A stretch of 64,000 nt of DNA, from assembly GCF_000013445.1 (NCBI RefSeq), contig NC_007796.1:1586936-1650935 (forward strand). The letters run 5' to 3'. Below the pieces are notes generated by a model. That model was not told where the DNA came from, ran no database searches, and worked only from the letters and a program-made list of their open reading frames with translations. The DNA comes from Methanospirillum hungatei JF-1. GTDB taxonomy: Archaea > Halobacteriota > Methanomicrobia > Methanomicrobiales > Methanospirillaceae. A program made the translations under genes and the position numbers. Positions 1 through 22,357 of this stretch are shown here, one piece after another. How positions within the stretch are numbered: position 1 is the first letter of the stretch; the number at the start of each line of letters is the position of its first letter.

Positions 1-856
1 TAGCATCGTCAAACGCTTCAGACGGACTTTTTAGTTCAGCCCGGTTTTTCTTATATTTGAAATAGATCTCATCTGCAATATCGGGGATGACGATATTATC
101 CCGATAGAACCGCATCTTCTTCTCAAGTTCGCGGTACATACCGATTAAACCATAAATCGGACCAAACTCCGGCAGTGCAATACCTGATTCATAGCCTAGA
201 CCTGCATCCACCACGGTCAGATATGATTGGGCACTATCCATTACGCCCATGGCATCTTCGATCTCTTTCCCCACGATGTTTTGCCCGGCTTCATCCACCA
301 GACTTCCCTGCCAGTCAGGAATCTCTCGTGTTAAATTGTCTTTGAATGCAGAGATATCCCACATCATATTATCTTTCAGAGCGTAGGTGATTCCCCTGTC
401 CGGTCCAAGTACACCGGTTTCGTTCGCCACCAGGGCCTTATACAGGACCTCATCAGAATATTTACCAAACTGTGAGGGGAGATAGTATCGAAGTGTCCAG
501 ATAAGTTCTCCATAGTCTCGTGTCTTCTTTGTTGTATCTTCTCCCTTCAATCGGCCGTATATTAATTTCCCTAACCGAATCACTTCAGATTCGGCAAATT
601 TTTCCATATCAGACTGCCTTTCTGCATATGAAGGAGTACAACCCAGTCTATCAAAAATATCCTTCTGGTCATTTAAACCCTTATAAACCGCACCCCAAAC
701 CTCTATATCGACAGTAGTTGATGGATCAATCCATATATACAACTCATATTCATTATTTGTCTGAGTCCCATCAGCAACATCAGAAATTTTTGATGCAATA
801 ACAGAACCAGGTAATCCATCAAAAATAGACATTTCCCGGCCATCCGGCCAGCTCAT
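1..856 (-). CDS. Hypothetical protein, C-terminus cut by window edge
   Basis: An open minus-strand frame runs from an ATG at 856 off the left end without a stop, giving about 285 visible residues. It begins MSWPDGREMS and reads as a soluble, acidic, tryptophan- and tyrosine-containing protein with no signal peptide or membrane segment. I do not recognise the family. Its ATG overlaps the TGA of the upstream gene in an ATGA arrangement, so the two are almost certainly co-transcribed and translationally coupled. The upstream partner carries an N-terminal membrane anchor or signal peptide, so a secreted or membrane-linked pair is possible, but that is inference. Confidence 0.75.
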   Translation of the reverse strand, partial: MSWPDGREMSIFDGLPGSVIASKISDVADGTQTNNEYELYIWIDPSTTVDIEVWGAVYKGLNDQKDIFDRLGCTPSYAERQSDMEKFAESEVIRLGKLIYGRLKGEDTTKKTRDYGELIWTLRYYLPSQFGKYSDEVLYKALVANETGVLGPDRGITYALKDNMMWDISAFKDNLTREIPDWQGSLVDEAGQNIVGKEIEDAMGVMDSAQSYLTVVDAGLGYESGIALPEFGPIYGLIGMYRELEKKMRFYRDNIVIPDIADEIYFKYKKNRAELKSPSEAFDDA

Positions 857-1206
857 AACCCACTCCTGAAATTCTTCAGGCGTTTGAAATTTTTTTGCTG
901 ATCAATACTCACAACGACGCTCACATAATCCCCCTTCTTATTTTTTACCCGGTTATCATTTTGAGGGCATGAAAAAGGAATATACCCTCCCCACCGAACA
1001 GTGTGGACATGATTTCCTGAAGTAGGATATGATTCCCATTCTTCTGATACCTGAAGATTTGAAGAAATATCAGAACTCTGTGGAAGGGCAGAAATGAGAG
1101 ATGATGGAACATCCCCCGATACAGGAAAAACCAAAATAAAAATAAAGATCGCTGATACAAACAAAGGCATTATCAATCCATTTTGTTTCTGATGAATGAA
1201 TGACAT
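853..1206 (-). CDS. Small protein with N-terminal signal peptide or anchor, unknown function
   Basis: A frame open from 1242 contains a better start at ATG 1206, nine bases after a G-run (minus strand GGGGGAAAT), giving 117 residues. From that start, residues 1-12 are polar or basic and about 13-32 are hydrophobic, ending near FPVSGD, which resembles a signal peptide or single membrane anchor. The rest is hydrophilic and contains a single cysteine (SCPQ). There is no recognisable domain. The stop overlaps the ATG of the next minus-strand gene by 4 bp, indicating an operon. The longer version (129 aa from 1242) cannot be excluded. Confidence 0.6.
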   Translation of the reverse strand: MSFIHQKQNGLIMPLFVSAIFIFILVFPVSGDVPSSLISALPQSSDISSNLQVSEEWESYPTSGNHVHTVRWGGYIPFSCPQNDNRVKNKKGDYVSVVVSIDQQKNFKRLKNFRSGL

Positions 1207-1424
1207 GATCAATTTCCCCCAAGATGCCTTCAGGAAAAGCAACCATGAGAGTGAATCTGTTATTATTCAGCAGGATCATACAGAACAATACCTGCTATGT
1301 GGATTTCTGATTGTACCGGTGGCATCAATGCATGAGTATTCGCACCTGAGTTGATAAAGTATGTGGCTCATTCAAATTTTTCCATGAACGGCCATTATGC
1401 CAAAAAAGGGAAAGTATAAGCGAA

Positions 1425-2768
1425 TCAGGCGTTATCAAAATTTTTACTCACCATCTCATATACCTCATCAATAAGCCGACCAGCTTCCCCGGTCATATAG
1501 AGCGGTATGGATAATATGGTATCATGAAAACTCAGCTCTCCTTCCCAGAACCGAATCGCAAACGGAGGCTTTTTCTCTTCCATGTACACACGCAGGGACC
1601 GGAGCGTACCGGTCTTTCCTGATTTCACTTCAACCGGGTATATCCTGCCTTTCCTGGTGATGCAGTAATCAATCTCACTCGAGCTCCCGGTCTTATCCCG
1701 TGCCCAGAAATAAAGTTCTGAACTGATGAACGGATCCTCAAGTGCCAATAATTCCTGACCGATAAACTGCTCTGCCAAACTGCCTCTGTTAATCTGCATA
1801 ACATCCTTCAGACTCATAATTTCAGCATTCAATCCACAAAGATGCTGCATAAGGCCAATATCCAGAAAAATATACTTCTGCTTATTGGACAGGGTTGCAC
1901 CGAGGGGAAGACCAGATGCATCTGTTCCATAGACAGGAGTGATGACACGGGCAAGGCTGAGCAGGTGGAGGGCATTTTTCAGATCGCGGGATTTAGATTC
2001 CCGGTCAATATTCACATATTTTATCTGTTCTGAAACCATCCGGGGAATTGCCGAAAAGACGGTCTGCAGATGTATTACCTCTGATGTCTTGCCATATTTG
2101 TAAAAATCCCGTTTATATGTTTCAATAAGTGCATCCTGGATATGTGAGCAGGTAAGAAAACTATCTGACTCCAGGTATGAGGCGATTACTTCAGGCATTC
2201 CTCCAAGGATAAAATACGTCCGAAGAAGAGAATTGAGTCGTTCATGGACTACTTTAGGGATGGCATCAGAGATATGAACGGAGTTCAGATATGAAATGAG
2301 GTTTTCTTCTCCCACTGCCCTCATGAATTCGGAAAAGGTGAGCGGGAACATATTTAAAAACTGAACTCTCCCCACCGGCATTCTCATTTCCGGAGTAAAT
2401 GCAAATTCAAGAAGTGAACCGGCTCCTATTACAAAGATATCAGGACGTAATTCTTTAAAGTAACGAAGAGACATGATAGCGTCCGGACACTCCTGTATTT
2501 CATCCAGAAATATCAGGGTATCTTTCGTGATTTTCTGGCGAAATAATAGTTCTATCTGTGAAATAATGGAATTTGGATCTTTCGTGTGAAATATTGATTT
2601 GAAACCAGGATCTAAATCAAAATTAAGGGCAACATAATTTTTAAATTCCTTTTTCCCAAATCGCTCGACACTATAACTCTTCCCCACCTGTCGTGCACCC
2701 CTGATGAGAAGCGGAGTCCGGTGAGATTTTTTCCATGAGAGGAGGTGTGACGAGATGGCCCGATCCAT
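1425..2768 (-). CDS. AAA ATPase with DUF4143 / PD-(D/E)XK C-terminus
   Basis: This is a 447-residue P-loop ATPase of the archaeal ATPase/DUF4143 group. Near the N-terminus is a Walker A motif GARQVGKS, followed by a Walker B-like LIFLDEIQ near residue 100. The C-terminal third carries a restriction-endonuclease-like core, with SEIDY followed by IYPVEVKSGKTG (D...E-x-K). The family is widespread in archaea and bacteria; its substrate is unknown and a mobile or defence-related role is only suspected. A longer frame extends to 2822, but ATG 2768 is preferred. A TATA-like box lies about 28 bp upstream of it, which would give an essentially leaderless transcript. Three related ATPases occur elsewhere in the window. 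Confidence 0.85.
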   Translation of the reverse strand: MDRAISSHLLSWKKSHRTPLLIRGARQVGKSYSVERFGKKEFKNYVALNFDLDPGFKSIFHTKDPNSIISQIELLFRQKITKDTLIFLDEIQECPDAIMSLRYFKELRPDIFVIGAGSLLEFAFTPEMRMPVGRVQFLNMFPLTFSEFMRAVGEENLISYLNSVHISDAIPKVVHERLNSLLRTYFILGGMPEVIASYLESDSFLTCSHIQDALIETYKRDFYKYGKTSEVIHLQTVFSAIPRMVSEQIKYVNIDRESKSRDLKNALHLLSLARVITPVYGTDASGLPLGATLSNKQKYIFLDIGLMQHLCGLNAEIMSLKDVMQINRGSLAEQFIGQELLALEDPFISSELYFWARDKTGSSSEIDYCITRKGRIYPVEVKSGKTGTLRSLRVYMEEKKPPFAIRFWEGELSFHDTILSIPLYMTGEAGRLIDEVYEMVSKNFDNA

Positions 2769-2790
2769 AGTTACTATATGCAGTTCGAAG

Positions 2791-2802
2791 AACATATATA
2801 CC
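2791..2802 (-). promoter_or_regulatory. TATA box for the AAA ATPase at 1425-2768
   Basis: On the minus strand this reads GGTATATATGTT. Its centre is about 28 bp from the ATG at 2768, the usual archaeal TATA-to-transcription-start distance, so the mRNA would be leaderless. No Shine-Dalgarno sequence is seen before that ATG, which agrees. Confidence 0.5.
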
Positions 2803-2810
2803 TTGGCTAA

Positions 2811-2855
2811 AATAGGGGGCAATTTTTACCAACTTTTGGACATTTTAGGGGGCAA
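2811..2855. repeat. Two direct repeats TAGGGGGCAA, possible IS end
   Basis: The decamer TAGGGGGCAA occurs at 2813-2822 and again at 2846-2855, each flanked by A/T tracts, with a 33-bp period. G/C-run repeats of this style are reminiscent of the multiple terminal repeats of IS21-family elements. No transposase is adjacent, so at most this is a solo end. The remainder of 2856-3101 contains C-rich sequence and no gene that I can support. Confidence 0.35.
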
Positions 2856-3101
2856 CTTCATCCACCCACCCATACATTTCAGGGGTTCCACCATCACAAT
2901 CACCCCTCTTCCCATCCCTCTTGCCAGGACTCCCATCCAGGAACCAGCCATACCTCCCCACAGCCCCGGAGCAGATTCATGATCTCCGGCTAAACCAAAG
3001 ATGAGAACACTTCAAACCGCTCAATTCCTTAAACCCGCCATTATTCTTCTCCCGATACAAACCTGTTTAAATCACGATACTATCTCCCTTCCAACACTTC
3101 T

Positions 3102-3119
3102 CTGTCACACCCGTGACAG
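3102..3119 (+). promoter_or_regulatory. Hairpin immediately upstream of a ribosome binding site
   Basis: There is a perfect 7-bp inverted repeat, CTGTCAC at 3102-3108 and GTGACAG at 3113-3119, with a 4-base loop. It abuts the Shine-Dalgarno-like GGAG and ATG 3129 of the next gene. In RNA it would fold just 5' of the ribosome binding site. As DNA it could be an operator. Confidence 0.4.
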
Positions 3120-3128
3120 GAGAAACGA

Positions 3129-3632
3129 ATGGCAGACTTTGTCTCAAAATCAGTTGTAAAAAGTGCAGAGCGGGTCCTTGCTACCCCTCTGGCCAGCAAA
3201 GCCACATTAAACACCATCGTCGGGAATATCCTCGCCGACAACCCGTGGGGATGCACCCCGTACCAGTCAGGCGGAGAGACCCTCCCGGCGGTGGCAAAAA
3301 GCAGCGAATACTACTCCGGAACCATCATCTATGAGAACAATGAAGGAAAACAGGTTGGCAGGATATCTGTCCGTGCTCCCTCATCCGGTGCATTTGACAC
3401 CACGATATCCACCCTCCTTGCACAGGCAGGACTTGAGACCGCCATGGGAGGAACTGCATCACATGACAGCTCTGAAGATGGCTTTTCAGTCACCCTCAAA
3501 TGTCATGCAGCGAATGGAGAACTCTATAATGTCGCATTCAAACGTGACAAGGTAAGTATCTCCAGCTTTGAATCGGATGGGATCATGACCACCATCGAGA
3601 CCTGGGCAGATACCGTCAGCGAACTGGCCTGA
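3129..3632 (+). CDS. Conserved-looking hypothetical protein
   Basis: This is a 167-residue soluble protein with no signal peptide. It contains a mixed alpha/beta-looking sequence with one NPWGC motif near residue 38, a central GRISVRAPSSGAFD segment and an acidic C-terminus. I do not recognise a family. The start is supported by AGGAG about six bases upstream of the ATG. It is followed after 23 bp by a small exported protein with an excellent Shine-Dalgarno sequence, so the three genes 3129-4419 are probably one operon. A perfect hairpin lies directly before its ribosome binding site. Confidence 0.7.
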   Translation: MADFVSKSVVKSAERVLATPLASKATLNTIVGNILADNPWGCTPYQSGGETLPAVAKSSEYYSGTIIYENNEGKQVGRISVRAPSSGAFDTTISTLLAQAGLETAMGGTASHDSSEDGFSVTLKCHAANGELYNVAFKRDKVSISSFESDGIMTTIETWADTVSELA

Positions 3633-3655
3633 TCACCCTTCTTTTTGGAGGTGAC

Positions 3656-4207
3656 ATGAATACCCATTATTCTCTCCTCTTTCTCATTATTCTCATCCCC
3701 GCTGTAAGCTTTTCCTGTGCTGATTCCCTTACATCTTCCATCGTCTGTAATGGAGCAGCCTTTGTCTCATCATCACTCATCAGCCAGGGACAGACCTATG
3801 CAGCAGAGTTCTTTGCAAGTGACCTGGCAGTTCTCATCAGAACCCTCAACCTTGACACAGAACCAAAAACACAGACGATCATCAATGCAACCGGCCCACT
3901 CGGAATTGATGAATATTCCAGTCTGACCAGGGAATATGAGAAAGATAGCCCGCTTTGCATCTTTGAGGATACCCGGAACAGAACAGATTCAGGGTCACAA
4001 GTCCGGACTCTGGGCCTATTAGATCAGGGAGAATATTCCTCATCCCGTTCAGTAGCCAAGGAGCTTACTGCATTCACTGCTGTCAATGGATCAGGAATAA
4101 TCCAGATACGAGCCGGAACAGAGGATAAAAACCGGACAACATCAATGAAGGCTGATATCCTCGGAGACATGAACATGACCGAACATCTCACCCTTGGTGG
4201 ATCATGA
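3656..4207 (+). CDS. Exported protein of unknown function
   Basis: This is a 183-residue protein with a clear N-terminal signal peptide (hydrophobic core about residues 5-18, cleavage near SFSCADS). The mature part is Ser/Thr-rich and lacks further membrane segments, so it is likely surface-exposed. The start is certain, because the canonical GGAGGTGAC is directly ahead of the ATG. A cysteine follows the hydrophobic core (FSC), but the surrounding residues do not make a classic lipobox. The stop overlaps the start of the next small membrane protein by 4 bp, so the two products may work together at the membrane. Confidence 0.7.
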   Translation: MNTHYSLLFLIILIPAVSFSCADSLTSSIVCNGAAFVSSSLISQGQTYAAEFFASDLAVLIRTLNLDTEPKTQTIINATGPLGIDEYSSLTREYEKDSPLCIFEDTRNRTDSGSQVRTLGLLDQGEYSSSRSVAKELTAFTAVNGSGIIQIRAGTEDKNRTTSMKADILGDMNMTEHLTLGGS

Positions 4208-4419
4208 TCACATGGGATCATACCTTCCTTCTCACGGTGGTATCGCTCATCTGTGCTGTACCTGGATACATCGGAGGAATTCTCTCTCTCCTCTATTATC
4301 GCCATTATGCAGAGAATATCATTCAATTCGTGAAATCATCCGACAAAGAATTGGAAATAACGTGCATCAGTACCGATAGAGAAGGAAATGTTCACATCAA
4401 AAGCCCCTTTGATGACTGA
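4204..4419 (+). CDS. Small single-pass membrane protein
   Basis: This is a 71-residue protein with one hydrophobic segment (roughly residues 8-32) followed by a charged tail that ends in acidic residues. It overlaps the upstream exported-protein gene by ATGA, a sign of translational coupling. There is no family assignment. The C-terminal tail (about 35 residues) is probably cytoplasmic or a short accessory domain. Confidence 0.6.
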   Translation: MITWDHTFLLTVVSLICAVPGYIGGILSLLYYRHYAENIIQFVKSSDKELEITCISTDREGNVHIKSPFDD

Positions 4420-4526
4420 ATAAGGATCTGAATCCATAATTCCATTGCAGAAATCGATTCGATCATACCAGGATCCTCATCCCTCTTTTTCCATACTTTA
4501 TTGATCAGTACATTGCGAAACAATTC

Positions 4527-4551
4527 GATACATTCTGATACATTCTGATAC
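4527..4551. repeat. Tandem decamer GATACATTCT
   Basis: GATACATTCT occurs twice in direct succession, followed by a third partial unit GATAC. Short direct repeats of this kind upstream of a replication gene resemble iterons. With only two and a half units the evidence is weak. Confidence 0.4.
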
Positions 4552-4810
4552 CTACGCATACAATTTGCGCCACATAGATACCAATAGAACACGGATATTT
4601 ATACCCATGCCCGCTGATTTTTAAGCCGATGGGGATTCTATAGGATCTCGCCACAAATGATTTCGAATATGCAGGAATAGGGGCGCATTAGCGCGGAGTA
4701 GATAGCAGAATGAGTATTTTTTTTAACTTTATCTTCTCAGCGAATAATCGAGCTGGTGATAGACAATAATCCCGTAATGTTTATATTTACAGGCCCTCTA
4801 AATACGAAAG

Positions 4811-4829
4811 GCTCCAATACCTGTGGAGC
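4811..4829. other. Stem-loop GCTCCA / TGGAGC
   Basis: This is a perfect 6-bp stem with a 7-base loop in an otherwise A/T-rich intergenic region. There is no T-tract on either side, so it is not an obvious terminator. It may be a protein-binding or replication-related structure. Confidence 0.35.
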
Positions 4830-5049
4830 AGTGTGAATATCAGAGAATAAGTGATTATTCACATAAATTGTAGAGAATTCAGAGCATTTTTAGGAAGTGA
4901 CCTCTAAATGGCCTTCACATCGATACTGAAAAATATGATGAAAAAATTAACCGGAATGGTGATCTATTGAAGAGATTTACACGAAAGCGAACAAATAACC
5001 CCCACATCGTCAATCACCGACCAAGGAAATCGAACTCTGCAGGGGTAAT

Positions 5050-5062
5050 ATGTTATTATATA
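5050..5062 (+). promoter_or_regulatory. Probable promoter of the primase-helicase operon
   Basis: A TTATTATATACG box lies about 50 bp before ATG 5109. A transcript starting about 25 bp downstream would have a short leader containing GGGGTGAGATC, a strong ribosome binding site directly before the ATG. Confidence 0.5.
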
Positions 5063-5108
5063 CGTCTTGTGTTAAGAGAGTTTGCATGCACCAACGGGGT
5101 GAGATCGT

Positions 5109-5438
5109 ATGTCTGACAGCCTCACTCTTCGTGCTGCAATCTATCATGCACTGGCACGACTCAGCCTCTCCGGATACCAGGCTGAACGGATCTGTGGCAA
5201 AACACGACTCTTTGATATCATCGCCTGGAATAAGGAACGGATAGTATTCCTTGCCATCAGAACCTCACGAACCAGGTCTCTTACCCGGTTTTCTGAAGAA
5301 CTGATCTCCTTGTGCAGAATGGTCAACACTCATCCGGTTCAGGTGCAGATCCAGTTCTGGCTCTATTGTAACGCAGAATGGTCACAATACCAGGTACTCA
5401 GCGGAGGAGCCATGCCAATCCGGGAGGGATCCCTGTGA
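5109..5438 (+). CDS. Hypothetical protein, first gene of mobile-element operon
   Basis: This 109-residue basic protein is the first gene of a five-member overlapping cluster. The centre (about residues 32-55) has the alternating strand pattern FDIIAWN-KERIVFLAIR. It recalls the core of PD-(D/E)XK nucleases or Holliday-junction resolvases, but the usual E-x-K is replaced by A-x-R, so any nuclease activity is doubtful. The start is supported by GGGGTGAGATC just upstream. Its stop overlaps the GTG start of the next gene. Its placement suggests an accessory role in replication or recombination of the element. Confidence 0.6.
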   Translation: MSDSLTLRAAIYHALARLSLSGYQAERICGKTRLFDIIAWNKERIVFLAIRTSRTRSLTRFSEELISLCRMVNTHPVQVQIQFWLYCNAEWSQYQVLSGGAMPIREGSL

Positions 5439-5698
5439 AAGAGGAGTATATCGATGAAGTCCTCCATGCAGTTATGCATTCCCTCAGGGAGAACCAGACA
5501 CTCATCTCCAGAAGAGCGATAGAAGAAATCATCAGGAATGATCCCTACCTCTATCCGGCATTTCGTTCCCTCTCTCCCACCTCACGGCGGACAAAGATCA
5601 GCATCATCATGAACCTGCACTTCCCCCTCTGGATAAAAGGAAAGGGAGTTCATCAAAATACCTATGTCTGGAAGGTAAAAGACGAGAAAGAGGAGTGA
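5435..5698 (+). CDS. Small hypothetical protein (GTG start)
   Basis: This is an 87-residue protein, starting VKEEYIDEVL. A frame extending back to 5378 exists, but GTG 5435 is chosen. It has an excellent Shine-Dalgarno (GGGAGGGATCC) and overlaps the previous stop as GTGA. The sequence is mostly helical and charged, with a SPTSRRTKIS segment that could be a helix-turn-helix or DNA-contacting basic patch. No family is recognised. It lies 9 bp before the primase-helicase gene, so it is co-expressed with it. Confidence 0.6.
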   Translation: MKEEYIDEVLHAVMHSLRENQTLISRRAIEEIIRNDPYLYPAFRSLSPTSRRTKISIIMNLHFPLWIKGKGVHQNTYVWKVKDEKEE

Positions 5699-5707
5699 GG
5701 GGGCATC

Positions 5708-8700
5708 ATGACATCCCAGATACAAAATACCCTACACACCCTCTTTCAGCCAGGATCAGTCCTTGAACTTCGAGCCCTTTGGAAGAATGGCGGTGTTGCA
5801 TCAGGATACTACACCGATTATGAGAAGATGGCCCAGGATGCGGCAATTCTTGACGGGTTATCAGATATAGCAGGAATCTATGTTGTAGCAAATGAGATCA
5901 ATCCGGACCTCTTCGCACGGCGGGCAAACCGTCTGAATATGAAGTTGTCTAGGGACGATAAGACCACTGGTGACGAAGATATCATTCATCGGAACTGGTT
6001 CCTAATTGACGTAGATCCCCGGCGACCTTCCGGGATATCATCAACCGATGCAGAGCACCAGGCTGCCCTTCACAAAGCCAACCGGATCAGGGAATTCCTC
6101 TCTGAACTTGGATGGCCTGAACCAGTCTGTGCCGACTCCGGGAACGGGGCACATCTCATGTACCGGATAGACCTTCCCAATGATGATGCCTCACAACGCC
6201 TCATAAAATCCGCCCTTTTAGTCCTCTCAGCATTCTTCTCCGATGAACAGTCAGATGTAGACACCACCGTCTCCAATGCAGCACGGATATGGAAATTATA
6301 TGGAACACTCTCACGAAAGGGTGATTCAACCGATTACCGGCCACATCGTCGTTCCCTGATTCGATCTCGTCCGGATGTATTAGAAATTACCACGTATGAT
6401 CTGTTCCTCCGCCTGGTATCGCTTCTCCCCATGGGTGAGGATATCAGGACAGGAATAGAAAAACAAGGCATCATCCCCCGGGAAGAGGGATTCTCTCTTG
6501 GAACATGGTTGCAGAAGAATGGATTCTCATGCAGGGAAAAGCCCTATGGAGGAGGCATTCTCTACCTCTTTGATCAGTGTCCGTTCTCATCCGCCCATGC
6601 TGACGGAGCATATGCAATTCAGTTCGCCAATGGCGGCATATTCGCCGGATGTCACCACAATTCCTGTGGCGGCGGAACCCAGCGATGGCAGGAACTTCGT
6701 GAACGAATAGAAGGAAAACGTCCTCACCGTGATTATGACACCTGGCGACGGGAAGGAATCAGAAAACGGGCACGGGATAAAGCAGAACGTGACGGTATAC
6801 CTGAATTACCGGGTGCAGAGGAATGGAAACCAGCCGATGAAGATACCAATATTACCCCGTCCGAATCTGCCATAAGCCCGGATAAACCCAGTCAGACCAG
6901 TCATCCCAGACATGAAGTTTCAATACCCCTGGAGAACCGTCCGGAGATCTGGGAGAAAGCCATGGAGATTCTACATCACGGAAACCCAATTCAATACCTC
7001 CTTGACACCTTCGCAGAACATCATGTCGGTGACGGGATTGTTGCCCGATGCCTGATCATGTCACTTGCATCCCGGCTGGTTGAAAATTCAAAGGGGCTTC
7101 ATGTGCTGGTCACCGGAGAATCAGGAAAGGGAAAGTCCCACAGTTTTGATACGATGCTGGACCTTATCCCAGAAGAAGACACCCTTGCCGGCCGGTTCAG
7201 TGACAAGGCCCTCTTCTATCTTGATGACCTGAAAAAGGGATCAGTCATCTGTCTTGATGATGTATCACTCTCCGAACCAATGCAGGAGACCTTAAAGGGA
7301 GTCACCAGTAGTTTTCACAAACCCTTCATCTACCGGACGGTTGACAAGGAACGGAAAGGTCTGGTCAGGATTATTCCGGAACGGTGTATCTGGTGGGTTG
7401 CAAAGATGGAAGGAACGGGTGACGACCAGGTATGGAATCGTATGCTCACCGTCTGGATAGATGACAGCATCGAGCAGGACACAGAGGTCATGGCACGGGA
7501 ACTTGCAGCAGCTGCACGATCCACGGCCCTGCATCCAGAGATATCAGAGCGGACATTCATCTGCCGGGCACTCTGGAAGGAGCTCAGGGAATACCCGGTC
7601 CTCATACCCTATGCAGAACGAATCAGGTTCGCATCGGTCCGGAACCGGAGAAACCTGACGATGCTTTTGGATCTCATCCGGTCAGTCGCACTCATGTACC
7701 AGTATCAGCGTGTGATTCAGGAGACAAACGGAGTTAAGGAAGTTATTGCATCAGAGGAAGATTTCGCCCTGGCAAAGGAGATATTCCTACTCATATCCGG
7801 CACTCATGGCGGCCAGTATACCAAACTGACCAAGGCAGAGTATGAGATGGTTGAGATCATCAGAAGAGAGCATATCGTCTCATTCACCCTGCAGGAGATG
7901 CAGAAATTACTTGGAAAGTCACGAACCGCCACGTACCGGATTATTCATCCCAAAGATCCGAATAAACGTGAGTATGAAGGGTTGCTTGAGAAATGCCCGC
8001 CCCTCTCCTTTACCAAGCAGTCTCTTCTGCTTGAGAGTGGAAAGCGTCAGATCTGTAATGTCTACACCTGGGATTATGAGATGGATGCCGTATGGTCAGG
8101 ACGTGAGGGGTGTTGGCTGTCATCCGATGACGACGATGATCAGTCTGATGAGATGAACCGATCACCTGTGCAGGTGTGCCCCCCTGTGCCCGTGGTGTTT
8201 TCAGAAAATGACACAGCAATCAAACCCCGTGATGCAGAATTAAATCAAAACACAGAACAATCCGGGTCAGAAAAAGATGGTGTGCGTACCCCGGCAGGAT
8301 CACAGAGCCCGGATGTCAGTGATCATACCGGTTCCTGTGAATTCAAAAATAATGCACACCGTACACAGAGTTTAGGGAATACGAATAATTCTTCACCTGA
8401 TTCTGAAACGGTACCTGATGTACCTGTGCAAAAAAATGAGAACAGAGTGGGATCAGGGTGTGCACAGGATCACAGCGTGCAAGAATCAGATACAGATACG
8501 GATACAGATACAGTCACAAAGACACGTGATCGATTTCTATCAAAATCAGAGATTGATCCAGCCCGGTGTATCAGGATAGAAGGAACAGGAGCACATACCA
8601 GAGTCTGTGATAGTTGTGGAGCGACTGGAGGCATATACGAACTCAGGGCAGGGATTCGAATGCCAGTTACCAATGCTGTTCCGATCATTTGTGAAAAGTG

Positions 8701-8950
8701 CCATAGTGCAGCGGTTGCACGGGAGGTATTATCATTCCGGGCTCTCCCAGGACTCCTGCCAATTGCCAACATGAAACCGTTTGATAAAGAGGGGGTGCCA
8801 TGTTCGCTCTGTCATATCAACCGGATTGCATGGCTGGATGACGAGACAAATATAGGCCTGTGCCAGACGTGTTATGAGCGGGAAAAGGATCTTTCCGCCA
8901 GAGAGCGTGATACACGGGGGACTATTGAGGAGAGATCCGATGCCATTTGA
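5708..8950 (+). CDS. Primase-helicase of an integrated plasmid or virus
   Basis: This 1080-residue fusion would prime and unwind DNA during element replication. Residues about 30-230 are an archaeo-eukaryotic-type primase (PrimPol) domain, with motif I as LIDVDPRRPSG (D101, D103). Motif II is SGNGAHLMY (H149) and motif III is DVDTTVSNAARIW followed by GTLSRKGD. A zinc-binding segment follows (C291, C315, C320). A P-loop helicase domain follows, with Walker A GESGKGKS at 470-477 and Walker B VICLDD at about 513-518. A low-complexity linker (about 840-950) contains an SDTDTDTDT repeat. The C-terminus has two four-cysteine zinc ribbons (C967/970/995/998 and C1032/1035/1052/1055). It sits in an operon with four small genes. 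No integrase is seen nearby, so mobility is inferred from the protein type. Confidence 0.85.
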   Translation: MTSQIQNTLHTLFQPGSVLELRALWKNGGVASGYYTDYEKMAQDAAILDGLSDIAGIYVVANEINPDLFARRANRLNMKLSRDDKTTGDEDIIHRNWFLIDVDPRRPSGISSTDAEHQAALHKANRIREFLSELGWPEPVCADSGNGAHLMYRIDLPNDDASQRLIKSALLVLSAFFSDEQSDVDTTVSNAARIWKLYGTLSRKGDSTDYRPHRRSLIRSRPDVLEITTYDLFLRLVSLLPMGEDIRTGIEKQGIIPREEGFSLGTWLQKNGFSCREKPYGGGILYLFDQCPFSSAHADGAYAIQFANGGIFAGCHHNSCGGGTQRWQELRERIEGKRPHRDYDTWRREGIRKRARDKAERDGIPELPGAEEWKPADEDTNITPSESAISPDKPSQTSHPRHEVSIPLENRPEIWEKAMEILHHGNPIQYLLDTFAEHHVGDGIVARCLIMSLASRLVENSKGLHVLVTGESGKGKSHSFDTMLDLIPEEDTLAGRFSDKALFYLDDLKKGSVICLDDVSLSEPMQETLKGVTSSFHKPFIYRTVDKERKGLVRIIPERCIWWVAKMEGTGDDQVWNRMLTVWIDDSIEQDTEVMARELAAAARSTALHPEISERTFICRALWKELREYPVLIPYAERIRFASVRNRRNLTMLLDLIRSVALMYQYQRVIQETNGVKEVIASEEDFALAKEIFLLISGTHGGQYTKLTKAEYEMVEIIRREHIVSFTLQEMQKLLGKSRTATYRIIHPKDPNKREYEGLLEKCPPLSFTKQSLLLESGKRQICNVYTWDYEMDAVWSGREGCWLSSDDDDDQSDEMNRSPVQVCPPVPVVFSENDTAIKPRDAELNQNTEQSGSEKDGVRTPAGSQSPDVSDHTGSCEFKNNAHRTQSLGNTNNSSPDSETVPDVPVQKNENRVGSGCAQDHSVQESDTDTDTDTVTKTRDRFLSKSEIDPARCIRIEGTGAHTRVCDSCGATGGIYELRAGIRMPVTNAVPIICEKCHSAAVAREVLSFRALPGLLPIANMKPFDKEGVPCSLCHINRIAWLDDETNIGLCQTCYEREKDLSARERDTRGTIEERSDAI
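8487..8513. repeat. Hexanucleotide microsatellite inside the primase-helicase
   Basis: Four units of CAGATA (one variant CGGATA) plus CAG encode an alternating Asp-Thr stretch in the linker before the C-terminal zinc ribbons. The repeat is in frame, so unit gain or loss would only change linker length. Confidence 0.7.
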
Positions 8951-9278
8951 GATTGTAGCGACCAGGCCGGCACCGGATCGAACCTACACAAAAGTGGGAC
9001 GACTCATTGCCGGTGAGGACGGACAGGTCCACCTGTTTCTTGATGGGAAGGGAGAGATACTGACTATTCCCCGAACCGATATCCTGTGTACTCTTCAGGG
9101 GCTTTCAATTCAGGGACTGGTTCTTTCGGATACCGGGAAGCGATTGATCGTGATCGACCGGGATGGTCGTGAATACCAGGTGCTGGTCAGTCAGGTCCGG
9201 GAGATGTTCCGGTCCTGGCCAAAGAAGAAGGCTGCGGTGTTTGTTGATGAAGAGAGGGTAAATACCCCTATCTCATGA
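8940..9278 (+). CDS. Hypothetical protein, last gene of primase operon
   Basis: This is a 112-residue protein starting MPFEIVATRP. ATG 8940 is preferred over upstream in-frame codons because GGAGAGATCC directly precedes it. It overlaps the primase-helicase stop by 11 bp. The sequence predicts several beta strands (GRLIAGEDGQVHLFL, KRLIVIDRDG) with a basic WPKKK patch, which suggests a small OB- or SH3-like nucleic-acid-binding protein. No family is recognised. Its stop overlaps an upstream ATG of the first Rpn gene frame. Confidence 0.65.
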   Translation: MPFEIVATRPAPDRTYTKVGRLIAGEDGQVHLFLDGKGEILTIPRTDILCTLQGLSIQGLVLSDTGKRLIVIDRDGREYQVLVSQVREMFRSWPKKKAAVFVDEERVNTPIS

Positions 9279-9331: not shown

Positions 9332-10201
9332 ATGAAAGACTCAGATCATCAATACAAGCGAATATTCAGTCATCCCCGGATGGTTGCAGATCTTATACGG
9401 GGTTTTTTGGATCCTGCCCTTGCTGATGGCTGTGACTTTTCGACTCTGAAACGGTGTAATGGGAGTTATATCACTGATGATCTCAGGGAGCGTGAAGACG
9501 ATATCATCTGGAAGGTAACATACGGGGAAAGAACCCTCATTCTTTACATCCTCATCGAATTCCAGTCCAAACCAGATTATGCCATGCCAGTTCGGATTAT
9601 GACATATATGGGTCTTCTCTGGCAGGATCTTATACGGACAAAGGTCATAAACCCGATTAAACCGTTACCGGCAATTATGCCAATAGTCCTTTACAATGGA
9701 AAACAACCCTGGAGTGTGCCGGAAGATATCAAAAAGACTATTAACGCTCCTGAACCACTTCACACATTTGTCCCGTCAGTTCCATACCTGCTGATTGATG
9801 AACTCAGACTATCTGTGCATCACCTGGTTGAAGTCAGAAATTTATCAGCATGTTTGTTCAGACTTGAACAGTCGGCAGGGCCGGTGGAACTTATAGAACT
9901 TGGATTCAGATTAAACCAGTGGATGGAAAAAGATCCTGGACTTGCTGAGATGAGAAGGGATTTCTCGTTATTCTTTGAGAATACCTTAATGAGAGATCAG
10001 GATATACCTATACCTAACCCGTTTGTTGGAGGGACCATGTTAGCTGAAAAAGTAGACAAGTGGATTGCAGCATATAAGGCTGAAGGCAGAATTGAAGGAA
10101 TGGCAATTATTCTGGAGCGGATGAAAAAAGCAGGGATGTCAGTTGCCGAGATCGCAAAGATAACAGGGATGCCAGAGGAAGAGATCAGATCTCTGATATG
10201 A
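9332..10201 (+). CDS. Rpn-family PD-(D/E)XK nuclease / putative transposase, copy 1
   Basis: This 289-residue member of the Rpn (recombination-promoting nuclease, YhgA-like) family cuts DNA in characterised relatives. The nuclease core is in the first 90 residues, with REREDDIIW (D56/D57) followed by LIEFQSKPDY (E76-x-Q78). The C-terminus has an AEGRIEG tract followed by a helix-turn-helix-like AEIAKITGMPEEEI. The frame is open from 9275 (ATGA overlap with the previous gene), but ATG 9332 matches the start of the other copies. It lacks the private TATA region that precedes copies 2 and 3 and may be transcribed from the primase operon. Confidence 0.85.
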   Translation: MKDSDHQYKRIFSHPRMVADLIRGFLDPALADGCDFSTLKRCNGSYITDDLREREDDIIWKVTYGERTLILYILIEFQSKPDYAMPVRIMTYMGLLWQDLIRTKVINPIKPLPAIMPIVLYNGKQPWSVPEDIKKTINAPEPLHTFVPSVPYLLIDELRLSVHHLVEVRNLSACLFRLEQSAGPVELIELGFRLNQWMEKDPGLAEMRRDFSLFFENTLMRDQDIPIPNPFVGGTMLAEKVDKWIAAYKAEGRIEGMAIILERMKKAGMSVAEIAKITGMPEEEIRSLI

Positions 10202-10360
10202 GTCCTTTTGCAGCTGACCAATCCTTCCAGAAATAAAGTTACTTTTCCAATCTTCAAAATATGCAATTCAACAGAGTAATATACTATCTATAGTTGATGA
10301 ATAAAACTCCACCCCCATGACTTCGTTAATAATGGAATAAAACCAATTTTTCAGAAATCA

Positions 10361-10371
10361 GATAATATATT
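10361..10371 (+). promoter_or_regulatory. Candidate promoter of Rpn copy 2
   Basis: The TATA-like GATAATATATT lies about 43 bp upstream of ATG 10409. It sits within the duplicated spacer and so recurs in unit 3. Confidence 0.4.
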
Positions 10372-10408
10372 CATAGCAGATACGACATACCATGACACAG
10401 GAACTCAC

Positions 10409-11290
10409 ATGAAAGACTCAGATCATCAATACAAGCGAATATTCAGTCATCCCCGGATGGTTGCAGATCTTATACGGGGTTTTTTGGATCCTGACCTTGC
10501 TGATGGCTGTGACTTTTCGACTCTGAAACGGTGTAATGGGAGTTATATCACTGATGATCTCAGGGAGCGTGAAGACGATATCATCTGGAAGGTAACATAC
10601 GGGGAAAGAACCCTCATTCTTTACATCCTCATCGAATTCCAGTCCAAACCAGATTATGCCATGCCAGTTCGGATTATGACATATATGGGTCTTCTCTGGC
10701 AGGATCTTATACGGACAAAGGTCATAAACCCGATTAAACCGTTACCGGCAATTATGCCAATAGTCCTTTACAATGGAAAACAACCCTGGAGTGTGCCGGA
10801 AGATATCAAAAAGACTATTAACGCGCCTGAACCACTTCACACATTTGTCCCGTCAGTTCCATACCTGCTGATTGATGAACTCAGACTATCTGTGCATCAC
10901 CTGGTTGAGGTCAGAAATTTATCAGCATGTTTGTTCAGACTTGAACAGTCGGCAGGGCCGTTGGAACTTATAGAACTTGGATTCAGATTAAACCAGTGGA
11001 TGGAAAAAGATCCTGGACTTGCTGAGATGAGAAGGGATTTCTCGTTATTCTTTGAGAATACCTTAATGAGAGATCAGGATATACCTATACCTAACCCGTT
11101 TGTTGGAGGGACCATGTTAGCTGAAAAAGTAGACAAGTGGATTGCAGCATATAAGGCGGAAGGGAAAGCTGAAGGCAGAATTGAAGGAATGGCAATTATT
11201 CTGGAGCGGATGAAAAAAGCAGGGATGTCAGTTGCCGAGATCGCAAAGATAACAGGGATGCCAGAGGAAGAGATCAGATCTCTGATATGA
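10409..11290 (+). CDS. Rpn-family nuclease / putative transposase, copy 2
   Basis: This 293-residue near-identical duplicate of copy 1 has one extra KAEG unit in the C-terminal tract (four residues, 12 bp) and an A-to-D change at residue 29 (DPDL instead of DPAL). The predicted catalytic residues REREDD and EFQSK are unchanged, and no stop or frameshift is present, so it should be functional. It has its own spacer with a TATA-like box at about 10361-10371. Confidence 0.85.
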   Translation: MKDSDHQYKRIFSHPRMVADLIRGFLDPDLADGCDFSTLKRCNGSYITDDLREREDDIIWKVTYGERTLILYILIEFQSKPDYAMPVRIMTYMGLLWQDLIRTKVINPIKPLPAIMPIVLYNGKQPWSVPEDIKKTINAPEPLHTFVPSVPYLLIDELRLSVHHLVEVRNLSACLFRLEQSAGPLELIELGFRLNQWMEKDPGLAEMRRDFSLFFENTLMRDQDIPIPNPFVGGTMLAEKVDKWIAAYKAEGKAEGRIEGMAIILERMKKAGMSVAEIAKITGMPEEEIRSLI

Positions 11291-11450
11291 GTCCTTTTGC
11301 AGCTGACCAATCCTTCCAGAAATAAAGTTACTTTTCCAATCTTCAAAATATGCAATTCAACAGAGCAATATACTATCTATAGTTGATGAATAAAACTCCA
11401 CCCCCATGACTTCGTTAATAATGGAATAAAACCAATTTTTCAGAAATCAG

Positions 11451-11461
11451 ATAATATATTC
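11451..11461 (+). promoter_or_regulatory. Candidate promoter of Rpn copy 3
   Basis: This is the same ATAATATATTC box as ahead of copy 2, at the equivalent position in the third repeat unit and about 40 bp before ATG 11499. Confidence 0.4.
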
Positions 11462-11498
11462 ATAGCAGATACCGACATACCATGACACAGGAACTCAC

Positions 11499-12404
11499 AT
11501 GAAAGACTCAGATCATCAATACAAGCGAATATTCAGTCATCCCCGGATGGTTGCAGATCTTATACGGGGTTTTTTGGATCCTGCCCTTGCTGATGGCTGT
11601 GACTTTTCGACTCTGAAACGGTGTAATGGGAGTTATATCACTGATGATCTCAGGGAGCGTGAAGACGATATCATCTGGAAGGTAACATACGGGGAAAGAA
11701 CCCTCATTCTTTACATCCTCATCGAATTCCAGTCCAAACCAGATTATGCCATGCCAGTTCGGATTATGACATATATGGGTCTTCTCTGGCAGGATCTTAT
11801 ACGGACAAAGGTCATAAACCCGATTAAACCGTTACCGGCAATTATGCCAATAGTCCTTTACAATGGAAAACAACCCTGGAGTGTGCCGGAAGATATCAAA
11901 AAGACTATTAACGCGCCTGAACCACTTCACACATTTGTCCCGTCAGTTCCATACCTGCTGATTGATGAACTCAGACTATCTGTGCATCACCTGGTTGAGG
12001 TCAGAAATTTATCAGCATGTTTGTTCAGACTTGAACAGTCGGCAGGGCCGTTGGAACTTATAGAACTTGGATTCAGATTAAACCAGTGGATGGAAAAAGA
12101 TCCTGGACTTGCTGAGATGAGAAGGGATTTCTCGTTATTCTTTGAGAATACCTTAATGAGAGATCAGGATATACCTATACCTAACCCGTTTGTTGGAGGG
12201 ACTATGTTAGCTGAAAAAGTAGACAAGTGGATTGCAGCATATAAGGCTGAAGGGAAAGCTGAAGGGAAAGCTGAAGGGAAAGCTGAGGGCAGAATTGAAG
12301 GAATGGCAATTATTCTGGAGCGGATGAAAAAAGCAGGGATGTCAGTTGCCGAGATCGCAAAGATAACAGGGATGCCAGAGGAAGAGATCAGATCTCTGAT
12401 ATGA
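11499..12404 (+). CDS. Rpn-family nuclease / putative transposase, copy 3
   Basis: This 301-residue third copy is identical in its core to copies 1 and 2, with three extra KAEG units relative to copy 1 in the C-terminal tract. The PD-(D/E)XK residues are intact. The array thus presents alleles with 0, 1 and 3 additional repeats, all in frame. The downstream flank departs from the other units after about 27 bp past the stop, marking the right border of the duplication. Confidence 0.85.
   Translation: MKDSDHQYKRIFSHPRMVADLIRGFLDPALADGCDFSTLKRCNGSYITDDLREREDDIIWKVTYGERTLILYILIEFQSKPDYAMPVRIMTYMGLLWQDLIRTKVINPIKPLPAIMPIVLYNGKQPWSVPEDIKKTINAPEPLHTFVPSVPYLLIDELRLSVHHLVEVRNLSACLFRLEQSAGPLELIELGFRLNQWMEKDPGLAEMRRDFSLFFENTLMRDQDIPIPNPFVGGTMLAEKVDKWIAAYKAEGKAEGKAEGKAEGRIEGMAIILERMKKAGMSVAEIAKITGMPEEEIRSLI
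12246..12281 (+). repeat. 12-bp minisatellite GCTGAAGGGAAA x3 in Rpn copy 3
   Basis: There are three perfect consecutive units followed by a degenerate one, encoding repeated AEGK. The same locus has one unit in copy 2 and none in copy 1, so the tract is expanding or contracting without disrupting the frame. Confidence 0.9.
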
Positions 12405-12668: not shown

Positions 12669-13970
12669 ATGGCAATTCTCCATGACTGGAATTACTGGTA
12701 CAGGGATTTCCCACAGTTTATTCCCCGGCCAGAATATCAGGAGAAGATGCAGCGGTTGCGAAGGTCTGATGAGATCATTGTGCTGACCGGCATGAGGAGA
12801 AGTGGAAAATCAACACTGCTCAAACAGGAGATGGAGGATCTTGCCAGAAACCATGACAAGACCCAGCTCCTGTACATCAATTTTGAGGACCCGCGGTTCC
12901 CACCCGCTATGGATACTTCAATACTTGACCAAATTCTTGCAACATACCGGGAGAATATAAATCCGGATAAAGAGGTTTATCTGTTCCTTGATGAAGTGCA
13001 GAATGTCCAATCCTGGGAAAAGTGGGTTGTAACGGCCTATGAATTGCAAAAGGCCAGAATATATCTGACCGGATCATCATCCGCACTCCTTTCCGGTGAG
13101 ATTGCCTCATCCATCAGCGGGCGATATCTCAAAATTGACGTGTATCCATTAACGTTTCAGGAGTACCTGCTCTTTCACGACATATCATGCACCAGTATCA
13201 CTGAGTATACCACAAACCGGACGATGATTAACCGTTTATTTACCGGATACCTGACCTGAGGTGGTTTTCCTAAGGGAGCAATGCTTGAAGAAGACCTGAA
13301 AAAGGAAGAGTTATTGTCATATTTTCATACGATATTGCTCAGGGATATCATGGGGAGATATAAACTGCGTAATTATGATATCCTGCTCATATTGGTTGAA
13401 TATCTTCTCAAAAATGATACAAATCAGAATAATATCCACAGCATCAGCAAGGCCCTTTCAATACGTTATGAAACAACCCATGACTACATTGATTATCTGA
13501 AACAGGTGTATTTCTTCTTTGAAGTCAGAAATTTTCATTATTCTCTGAAGAAACAATTGGTGTCGGATATAAAATTTTATGCCCTTGATACCGGATTTGT
13601 AAATTCAGTTGCTTTTTCTTTTTCGGAGAATATTGGAAGACTGTATGAGAATGTCGTATGTAATGCACTCATCAGAAAAGGGAGACAGATATTTTTCTTT
13701 CGTGATGCTACTCATGAATGTGATTTTATTGTGAAGGAGGGAAACAAAATCACGAAGGCAGTTCAGGTCTGCTAGCACCTGACCGAACAGAACTTGAAAC
13801 GAGAGATAGGTGGCCTGGTTTCTGCATGTAAAGCTTTTGACCTGAATACCGGGTATATTATTACAGAACAGGCTGACAGGATCATGGAGGAAGATGGAGT
13901 GGAGATTCGTATAGTGCCGATTGTTGAGTATTTACTTGGGTTATCTCATACAAGTATTCAATTTTCATAA
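12669..13970 (+). pseudogene. AAA ATPase (DUF4143) broken by two in-frame stops
   Basis: This is one continuous 433-codon frame interrupted by TGA at 13257-13259 and TAG at 13773-13775. Both interruptions fall in conserved places. YLT-stop-GGFPKG is expected to read YLT-aromatic-GGFP, so TGG to TGA fits. VQVC-stop-HLTE corresponds to IQVCYEVT in the intact relative at 19337-20548, so a tyrosine codon became TAG. Walker A TGMRRSGKST, Walker B LFLDEVQ and the nuclease-like HECDFIVKEG are all preserved. No frameshifts are present, so decay is recent. Upstream A/T-rich sequence with TTATATC near 12597 could be the promoter. Read-through of the stops is an unlikely alternative. Confidence 0.85.
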
Positions 13971-13993: not shown

Positions 13994-14443
13994 TCATGAG
14001 TGATTAGTGCTGATTATTCGATTTAAATGTTCACTAATTGCAGAGATATCATTTAATTGAGTCTTTAAAACATCAAAGACAAGCACATCATTAATCTTCC
14101 CATATTGATGAACAAGAATATTTCTGAGACCTTTCATATCCTTGAGTAATTCACCCATTTCCGGATCGAGATATCCGGATTTTACAAGATTCCCAATAAT
14201 ATCATCATCATTCATCGGGACACCAAGTTTAAGATCCCGATTGAGTATTGCACAAATATCAAAGATGCTTTGAAGTATATATTCCAGCCTTTTGTATAAT
14301 CCATCCTTCAAAAGTCCAAGATTGATAAACTCATCATAATCATCCGTTACAGGAAGATTATCTTGGATTATTGAAAGAGAAAGATCAATTTCCGATAATA
14401 AAAAACGTATCTTTTCGGATCTGATTGGATGAGTATGGATCAT
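13994..14443 (-). CDS. hepT: HEPN toxin of a HepT/MntA system
   Basis: This is a 149-residue all-helical HEPN protein (HepT/DUF86 type). Its catalytic ribonuclease motif RX4HXY is visible as RNILVHQY near residue 120. In characterised systems the toxin cleaves RNA and is silenced when the partner nucleotidyltransferase AMPylates the tyrosine of this motif. It overlaps the upstream antitoxin gene by 4 bp (ATGA), the standard antitoxin-first order. The key residues are intact, so the pair is probably functional. Confidence 0.85.
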   Translation of the reverse strand: MIHTHPIRSEKIRFLLSEIDLSLSIIQDNLPVTDDYDEFINLGLLKDGLYKRLEYILQSIFDICAILNRDLKLGVPMNDDDIIGNLVKSGYLDPEMGELLKDMKGLRNILVHQYGKINDVLVFDVLKTQLNDISAISEHLNRIISTNHS

Positions 14444-14838
14444 AATATTTCTCTCTCCCCGATGTAATCCAGATAATGCGGTTTAAAAAACTCATACTCC
14501 CGGGAAATTTTCAGAGCCCTATCATAAAGTTCATCTTCGTCGGCCACATAGAGAACCTCTCCCTTAAAAACTTCTACCTGAACAAATAATGGGAGATGCT
14601 CAAAGATTTGAATGTCAAATGTATCCGATACTCTTCCGAGGATATGCATTCTCATTCGTTCAGCCTGAAGGTCTGGAAGATCTGTTGAAATGGCAATATC
14701 AATATCTGAATGAATGTCGTCCCTTCCTTCCGCTACAGACCCATAGAGGATAATAAACCGGATGTTCCCAAATACGGGAGTTGCTCGTATGATCTCCATG
14801 CAGGAGTGAATGTCATCTGTGAGCGGTTTGACAGGCAT
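14440..14838 (-). CDS. mntA: MntA nucleotidyltransferase antitoxin
   Basis: This 132-residue minimal nucleotidyltransferase has the family signature GSX10DXD as YGSVAEGRDD...SDIDIAI around residues 31-46. It would transfer AMP to the HEPN toxin encoded directly downstream and neutralise it. ATG 14838 is preferred; a TTG at 14850 would add four residues. A TATATAA box at about 14870-14878 on the minus strand lies about 35 bp before the ATG, giving a very short leader. Confidence 0.85.
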   Translation of the reverse strand: MPVKPLTDDIHSCMEIIRATPVFGNIRFIILYGSVAEGRDDIHSDIDIAISTDLPDLQAERMRMHILGRVSDTFDIQIFEHLPLFVQVEVFKGEVLYVADEDELYDRALKISREYEFFKPHYLDYIGEREIL

Positions 14839-14867
14839 ACATATTTCCAATAGAAAGCAGGAGGTCT

Positions 14868-15436: not shown

Positions 15437-15790
15437 TCAGGCAATACGCACTCCATCATGAATGACATTCTGAAGAAAGGAAAAAGAACAATATTCATCA
15501 AATTGTTTTCTTGATCGATATTTCGGAGAGATATCTATTCCAGTCTCCATGAATACATCAAAGCTCAGTCCAATAATATCAAACTCTACTTCACAACTAT
15601 CATCAGTTCCAATGGTCAGCAGGTTAACATCTGATTTTTCATTATTTTCGGAACGTGCAACTGATCCATACAAAATAAATTCCTCTATACGGTCTTCATA
15701 TTTTTTCCGTATCAGAGTGAGATACCGTTCAATAGCATCTTTTATCCGGCTATTATTGAGAGGGATCTCCTGAATATTCTTCACATACAC
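15437..15790 (-). CDS. Orphan minimal nucleotidyltransferase, degenerate active site
   Basis: This 117-residue MNT-fold protein has YGSVARSE followed by the metal-binding motif. The pattern GSX10DXD here reads GS-x10-DVN, so the second metal-binding aspartate is asparagine and catalysis is doubtful. The third acidic position, VEFDII, is retained. No HEPN partner lies on either side, unlike the intact mntA 0.6 kb away. It may be a decaying half of a second HepT/MntA pair. Confidence 0.7.
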   Translation of the reverse strand: MYVKNIQEIPLNNSRIKDAIERYLTLIRKKYEDRIEEFILYGSVARSENNEKSDVNLLTIGTDDSCEVEFDIIGLSFDVFMETGIDISPKYRSRKQFDEYCSFSFLQNVIHDGVRIA

Positions 15791-21843: not shown

Positions 21844-22357
21844 AGCGTCAGAGAAAATTCAGAACATGTACGTTCGATTATGAAGTTCTATAAACGCTCT
21901 TCCTGCTCCAGCTTTGTGGCAAATTTATAAGCCATGACACGGAGCGATGCAGTTCCGGCCATCAGGGTGTTCGTATACAATCCCTAACCTTTGGAAAGAG
22001 GCCTGAAGGTTCCTTTCAGAACCGATACCCCGATAAGAATGACCGACTGCAGAGTATCAAAAACATCGGCAGAGTTATTCCCACGGGTTTCAGACTCATA
22101 AAATATTTTTGGATCAGCTACTCCGAGAGATCTGCCCGGATTCTTCAGTCATCCTCCGCATTGTGTGAGGGAGATCATCCATATCGTTCATAGTACCCGT
22201 CTGATCATGCATCTTTATAAAACCCGGATTTGACCCGCATCAGAAATCACCTGCCAGTATTACCTCACATATTTTTCCTGATTCATGGCCTGCACTTCAG
22301 GAGAATAATATATAATTATTTATATATTTGGATCTATTGGTAAGGAGGCGAATTCGG
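21844..22357. other. Intergenic region with a possible decayed minus-strand gene
   Basis: From about 22209 down to 21895 the minus strand reads MHDQTGTMNDMDDLPHTMRR, then shifts frame. It continues as ADPKIFYESETRGNNSAD, reaches a stop (TAG), and goes on as LYTNTLMAGTASLRVMAYK. A TATA-like TTTTATAAAG precedes the ATG. The continuity across one frameshift and one stop suggests a degraded small gene of unknown family. The right end (22300-22330) holds the promoter of the next gene. Confidence 0.35.
22303..22328 (+). promoter_or_regulatory. A/T-rich promoter of the fourth Rpn gene
   Basis: Two overlapping TATA-like boxes, AATATATAATT and TTTATATATTT, lie 30-55 bp before ATG 22358. The ribosome binding site AAGGAGGCG follows immediately. 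Confidence 0.5.

Follow-up and report, generated by a model that had tools for sequence, protein, structure and literature searches.

A probable resident copy of an integrated plasmid-like replicon in the genome of Methanospirillum hungatei JF-1

We analyzed a 64,000-nucleotide stretch of the Methanospirillum hungatei JF-1 genome (NC_007796.1, positions 1,586,936–1,650,935; hereafter the window), focusing on a cluster of genes around a large fusion of a primase-polymerase (PrimPol) with a helicase, here called F0. This cluster is probably the resident copy of an ancestral integrated plasmid-like replicon that is common in the order Methanomicrobiales, and it lacks an integrase and is still under selection. 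An earlier note, made from the DNA letters, had proposed the replication module of an integrated element at 4420–9278, and this proposal was upheld: homologues of F0 lie beside integrase and tRNA genes, one of them between repeats of the end of a tRNA-Thr gene, and relatives carry Orc1/Cdc6 genes. The genes and sites of the window copy are listed below, with the ratio of nonsynonymous to synonymous substitution rates (dN/dS) where it was measured.

3102–3119, plus strand: hairpin CTGTCAC-ACCC-GTGACAG, immediately preceding the GGAG ribosome-binding site of the gene at 3129
3129–3632, plus strand: F7, soluble protein of 167 amino acids (dN/dS 0.11)
3656–4207, plus strand: F8, 183 amino acids, N-terminal signal-like segment read by eye (dN/dS 0.21)
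4204–4419, plus strand: small membrane-like protein of 71 amino acids, third gene of the F7 module, with an open reading frame (ORF) at the same place in the nearest-species locus L097 (dN/dS 0.62)
4420–5108, no strand assigned: non-coding region of 689 nucleotides, candidate promoter and origin region
4523–4551, no strand assigned: three tandem decamers, ATTCTGATAC
5109–5438, plus strand: F3, PD-(D/E)XK-like protein of 109 amino acids resembling Holliday junction resolvases (HJR) (dN/dS 0.11)
5435–5698, plus strand: F11, basic protein of 87 amino acids, GTG start within the preceding stop (GTGA) (dN/dS 0.16)
5708–8950, plus strand: F0, fusion protein of 1080 amino acids (dN/dS 0.17)
8940–9278, plus strand: F9, 112 amino acids, C-terminal motif QVR(G/E)M-WPKKKAA

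Linkage, distribution and selection of the element

We counted the linkage between F0 and F7 over twelve single-contig or near-complete genomes. F7 lay within 3 kb of F0 at 19 of the 49 fusion loci, against 0.95 expected by chance, and the distances of paired F0 and F7 sequences were correlated (Mantel r = 0.75 overall and 0.66 in Methanospirillum; 0 of 2,000 permutations). The module at 3129–4419 belongs to the element, which is larger than 4420–9278 and is not the minimal replicon that had been suggested. Homologues of the F7 module occur downstream of the fusion gene in L010, L013 and other loci, upstream of it in L079 and L081, and in divergent orientation in six copies of genome G207.

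Tyrosine integrase genes were found 1.2–5 kb from F0 in four of the twelve genomes (G159, G088, G089 and G140) and close upstream of F0 in locus L101 of a Methanospirillum metagenome-assembled genome, and most of the integrases near F0 have a tRNA gene beside them. In G140, a 19-base sequence from the end of the tRNA-Thr gene is repeated 30.1 kb away, and the interval between the repeats contains the integrase, F0, F7, methylases, and restriction and SIR2-like genes. This agrees with Makarova 2014 (PMC4158269), according to which some members have integrases and integration sites. In G088, G089 and G159, no convincing attachment repeat of at least 16 bp was found within about 60 kb. The window copy has no PF00589 tyrosine integrase within 200 kb, as the earlier note had stated for its immediate surroundings, and the window contains no tRNA gene.

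All twelve genomes have a pair of chromosomal Orc1/Cdc6 genes. Six of the genomes, all from outside the host's family, have 14 more in total. Each of these 14 genes is within 12 kb of F7, 11 of them are within 3 kb (0.15 expected by chance), and seven lie within 5 kb of F0; at several loci the order is F0, Orc1/Cdc6 on the opposite strand, and F7. A replicon is the simplest reading. JF-1 has two Orc1/Cdc6 genes only, at 517 kb and 2.74 Mb, neither of them element-borne. A third Orc1/Cdc6 class, always near F7, occurs in G109, G106, G112, G088, G046 and G089.

At least one copy of F0 was present in 147 of the 232 genomes of the order, with several copies each and about twelve in one Methanospirillum genome; matches outside Methanomicrobiales were partial and weaker. 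F7 was present in 192 of the 232 genomes, some of them without F0. The JF-1 genome holds three further full-length copies of F0 and several broken ones (L011, L012 and L014 are broken). In the nearest genome (G199), collinearity with the window locus runs from 561 to 8365 (89%), and the right flank there is on another contig. The dN/dS was 0.11–0.21 for five of the six measured genes, the exception being the 71-amino-acid gene; the gene at 8940 is outside this set because it lies beyond the end of the G199 contig. Given this collinearity and the low dN/dS, the window copy is inherited in place and kept by selection in at least part of the genus, which agrees with the suggestion in the earlier note that it may be domesticated. 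A second copy, at the matching locus L010, occurs in two other species as well (three in all), and its fusion, F3, F7 and F8 genes are similarly constrained. In two more distant species, no copy was found at the places that correspond to the flanks of the window copy. By the earlier note, its reading would fail if the genes stood at the same place in all relatives and had no episomal homologues or read pairs supporting a circle. This is half the case: only the nearest species has them at that place, and no free form was found.

The fusion protein, its partners and the regulatory sequences

The fusion predicted in the earlier note is real, in that a single ORF of 1080 codons carries invariant catalytic and Walker residues. 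An AlphaFold model combined with an alignment gave the domain order PrimPol (residues 1–240), zinc site (264–335), MCM-like AAA+ domain (412–700) and winged helix-turn-helix (wHTH; 703–800), followed by a disordered part (809–941) and a second zinc site (945–1070). In the alignment of 26 homologues, the PrimPol catalytic residues D101, D103, H149 and D185 were invariant, Walker A, Walker B and both zinc sites were kept, and C1032, C1035, C1052 and C1055 of the C-terminal zinc site were invariant. F0 fell below the cut-off of every Pfam and NCBIfam family and had no PHROG match. The mean predicted local distance difference test score (pLDDT) of the model was 74, and all 50 matches listed in a Foldseek search of the PDB with this model were MCM proteins or complexes. 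The helicase thus models as MCM-like and not as superfamily I, which corrects the published “superfamily I” or DnaA-like reading (PMC4158269), with the caution that the predicted template-modelling score (pTM) of the whole chain was 0.42.

Three small partners are conserved inside 4420–9278, not the four that had been counted. F3 has a FDIIAW...(I/V)(K/R) pattern read by eye, its match to the PHROG Holliday resolvase was weak (E = 0.31), and it agrees with the published description of arCOG09441 (PMC4158269). The active-site acid is lost in the family alignment, and F3 is probably not a nuclease. F11 was present in 10 of the 43 compared loci, and the F9 family comprised 18 ORFs in these loci, adjoining F0. 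The genes at 5109 and 5435 overlap by 4 nucleotides and those at 5708 and 8940 by 11; a gap of 9 nucleotides separates the genes at 5435 and 5708, and the operon is not strictly overlapping as had been claimed.

The non-coding stretch with decamers and a stem-loop was also confirmed: none of 300 dinucleotide shuffles scored as high as the decamers ATTCTGATAC, and the fold at 4795–4890 had z = -3.1. The region was 83.6% identical overall to L097, and two blocks (4650–4739 and 5010–5099) were 97–100% identical to the nearest species; these blocks could be parts of a promoter, a small RNA or an origin. The sequence of 4420–5108 was not common to other copies of the element. The decamers were conserved in the nearest species only and absent from all other copies, and they were rejected as iterons of the family because they are not shared.

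F7 matched no Pfam family. Its model was confident (pLDDT 93), and structure searches against the PDB and viral models gave no significant match, the best PDB template-modelling score being about 0.3. The family has a nearly constant length and many copies per genome. F8 follows F7 in the Methanospirillum copies and is secreted-looking. Of 80 leaders of F7 genes, 51% had a strong stem, compared with 10% when the halves were swapped between genes. The sequence of the hairpin varies and its pairing is kept (TGTCAC/GTGACA, GCCG/CGGC, TGTCGC/GCGACA and GCCCT/AGGGC), and all seven pairs showed changes on both sides in pair counts over 22 sequences; these were chosen for their hairpin, and the swapped-halves comparison is the fair test. 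No Rfam family matched the hairpin, which may act as a control element in RNA or as an operator in DNA. The RNA reading is favoured because the hairpin contacts the ribosome-binding site. The hairpin probably controls the translation of F7.

Mechanism and alternative readings

As a plasmid-like replicon, the element would work as follows. F0 would open the origin with its MCM-like AAA+ ring and wHTH, and its PrimPol domain would prime or copy the origin. F3, F11 and F9 would be accessory factors, and F7 a core protein of the element. Copies from other families of Methanomicrobiales also bring an Orc1/Cdc6 initiator of their own, and some bring a tyrosine integrase and a tRNA attachment site as well; the window copy would have lost excision. 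A bolder version of this reading, which we regard as speculative and on balance doubtful, is that the copies form a resident class of secondary replicons and are not decaying passengers. Each copy would have a PrimPol-MCM initiator diverged from those of the others, so that incompatibility would be avoided, together with a shared, slowly evolving F7 that regulates its own synthesis by means of the leader hairpin and might act as a coordinator of all copies; mobility would be provided in trans or be found only in occasional integrase-bearing members.

Several results weigh against a plasmid-like replicon. No plasmid or viral record holds F7, and the matches of plasmid and phage records to F0 are distant and partial, the best being to the PrimPol domain and first zinc site. 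Terminal overlaps were found in none of 22 short contigs, a weak negative on a circular form. In the six paralogous cassettes of G207, homology stops at the gene ends, with no inverted or direct terminal repeat. Circular permutation was dropped as proof of a circle, since the varying gene order, with the F7 module upstream, downstream or divergent, is equally explained by module shuffling.

One alternative is a domesticated host system, in which the chromosome uses the copies for repair, for restart or as additional origins, and they lost their mobility long ago. Purifying selection, the fixed place in the nearest species, the second copy common to three species (L010) and the near absence of integrases around Methanospirillum copies all argue for it. 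However, the number of copies differs widely, many of them are broken, 85 of the 232 genomes have no copy at all, and relatives still carry an integrase and repeats, so we consider it unlikely. The cluster could also be an integrated satellite virus that replicates itself and borrows its capsids from a helper virus, as was proposed for arCOG07809 elements on the basis of their small size and genes shared with fuselloviruses (PMC4158269). Against this, F7 was in no viral contig, the matches of viral contigs to F0 are essentially confined to the PrimPol and zinc part, no element gene had a PHROGs structural match, and no capsid gene was among the Pfam-checked neighbours; stable inheritance and the many constrained copies also fit poorly, and a satellite virus is quite improbable here. 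A defence or conflict system built on the primase-helicase is suggested by the neighbourhood, with a PADLOC candidate (1425–2822), CRISPR-cas-like genes upstream and a HepT/nucleotidyltransferase pair, but it is very improbable: PADLOC matched none of the seven element genes, and Orc1/Cdc6, the integrase and the tRNA repeats point to a replicon. That the window copy is an inert remnant of an old plasmid, like the broken L011, L012 and L014 in the same genome, is hardly credible given its intactness and the low dN/dS of all measured genes except the 71-amino-acid gene.

Relation to known systems and neighbouring genes

The element is of a known kind. Makarova 2014 (PMC4158269) described the arCOG07809 fusion with arCOG09441 (Mpal_2033 type) and proposed that they belong to small integrated elements or to satellite viruses; PrimPol, helicase, HTH and zinc finger are joined there in one protein beside an HJR-like PD-(D/E)XK protein. 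F0 likewise joins PrimPol, helicase, HTH and zinc finger in one protein, and both the published elements and the present one are small, lack capsid genes and occur in methanogens. The view of the earlier note that the small partners look undescribed stands only in part: the fusion and an HJR-like partner are in the 2014 paper. Unlike several of the published members, though not all, the window copy is accompanied by neither an integrase nor an attachment site, and its HJR-like protein lacks the catalytic acid; it is an integrase-less resident variant with new and testable additions. The compared text passages of the 2014 paper make no mention of links to F7, Orc1/Cdc6 or a hairpin, and an open-literature search found no other paper naming arCOG07809 or arCOG09441.

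The Sulfolobus plasmids of the pRN1 type and pSSVx also use a PrimPol fused to a helicase and wHTH (ORF904) as replication protein. In contrast to F0, the helicase part of ORF904 is of superfamily 3, and the protein is assigned to another arCOG (PMC4158269); no superfamily 3 helicase was found after the PrimPol domain of F0, whose listed fold matches were all MCM at a pTM of only 0.42, and a C-terminal zinc site follows. The free plasmid pMETHO01 of Methanomethylovorans hollandica, with a ParA gene not far away, matches residues 5–335 of F0 (PrimPol and first zinc site) at 44% identity, whereas its PrimPol part is fused to a protein annotated with HEAT repeats and the MCM-like part is unmatched. 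The staphylococcal cassette chromosome mec (SCCmec) has unrelated bacterial enzymes and large serine recombinases. Its replication operon, a primase-helicase pair, is similar in that a small replication gene set is kept in an integrated element (PMC7581432). In the collections searched, we found no described Methanomicrobiales plasmid replicon of the PrimPol-MCM type.

These results turn a one-paragraph prediction of 2014 into a defined element family in most of a methanogen order, with two candidate initiators, the very widespread protein F7 and a regulatory hairpin. They supply replicon parts for Methanomicrobiales (MCM-PrimPol, Orc1/Cdc6 and a candidate origin) and open to testing the question of how an archaeal chromosome can retain several replication modules and neither lose nor mobilise them.

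Other features of the window and the genome were as follows. The same genome has arrays of clustered regularly interspaced short palindromic repeats (CRISPR) at L323 9454–16275 (82 repeats) and L330 15173–18966 (39 repeats), and cas-like genes were read by eye at L015 1–5124. One JF-1 spacer matched the F7 leader of M. stamsii at 23 of 24 bases, but at 25 of 38 over the compared length, and was not used; no spacer of that array matches the element at full length with at most 8 mismatches. The gene at 1425–2822 encodes a DUF4143/AAA_14 ATPase with a strong match to PDC-S01, a candidate family of PADLOC. At 9332–12404, three tandem Transposase_31 (YhgA/Rpn) genes are 96–98% identical and differ in how many KAEG repeats they have near the C-terminus, and a fourth at 22328 is 68–71% identical; this family is described as abundant in M. 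hungatei (PMC4158269). A DUF4143 ATPase gene at 12669–13970 is split over three ORFs and apparently broken. On the minus strand, a HepT-like and nucleotidyltransferase pair at 13994–14850 is a probable toxin-antitoxin system, and another small nucleotidyltransferase gene lies at 15437.

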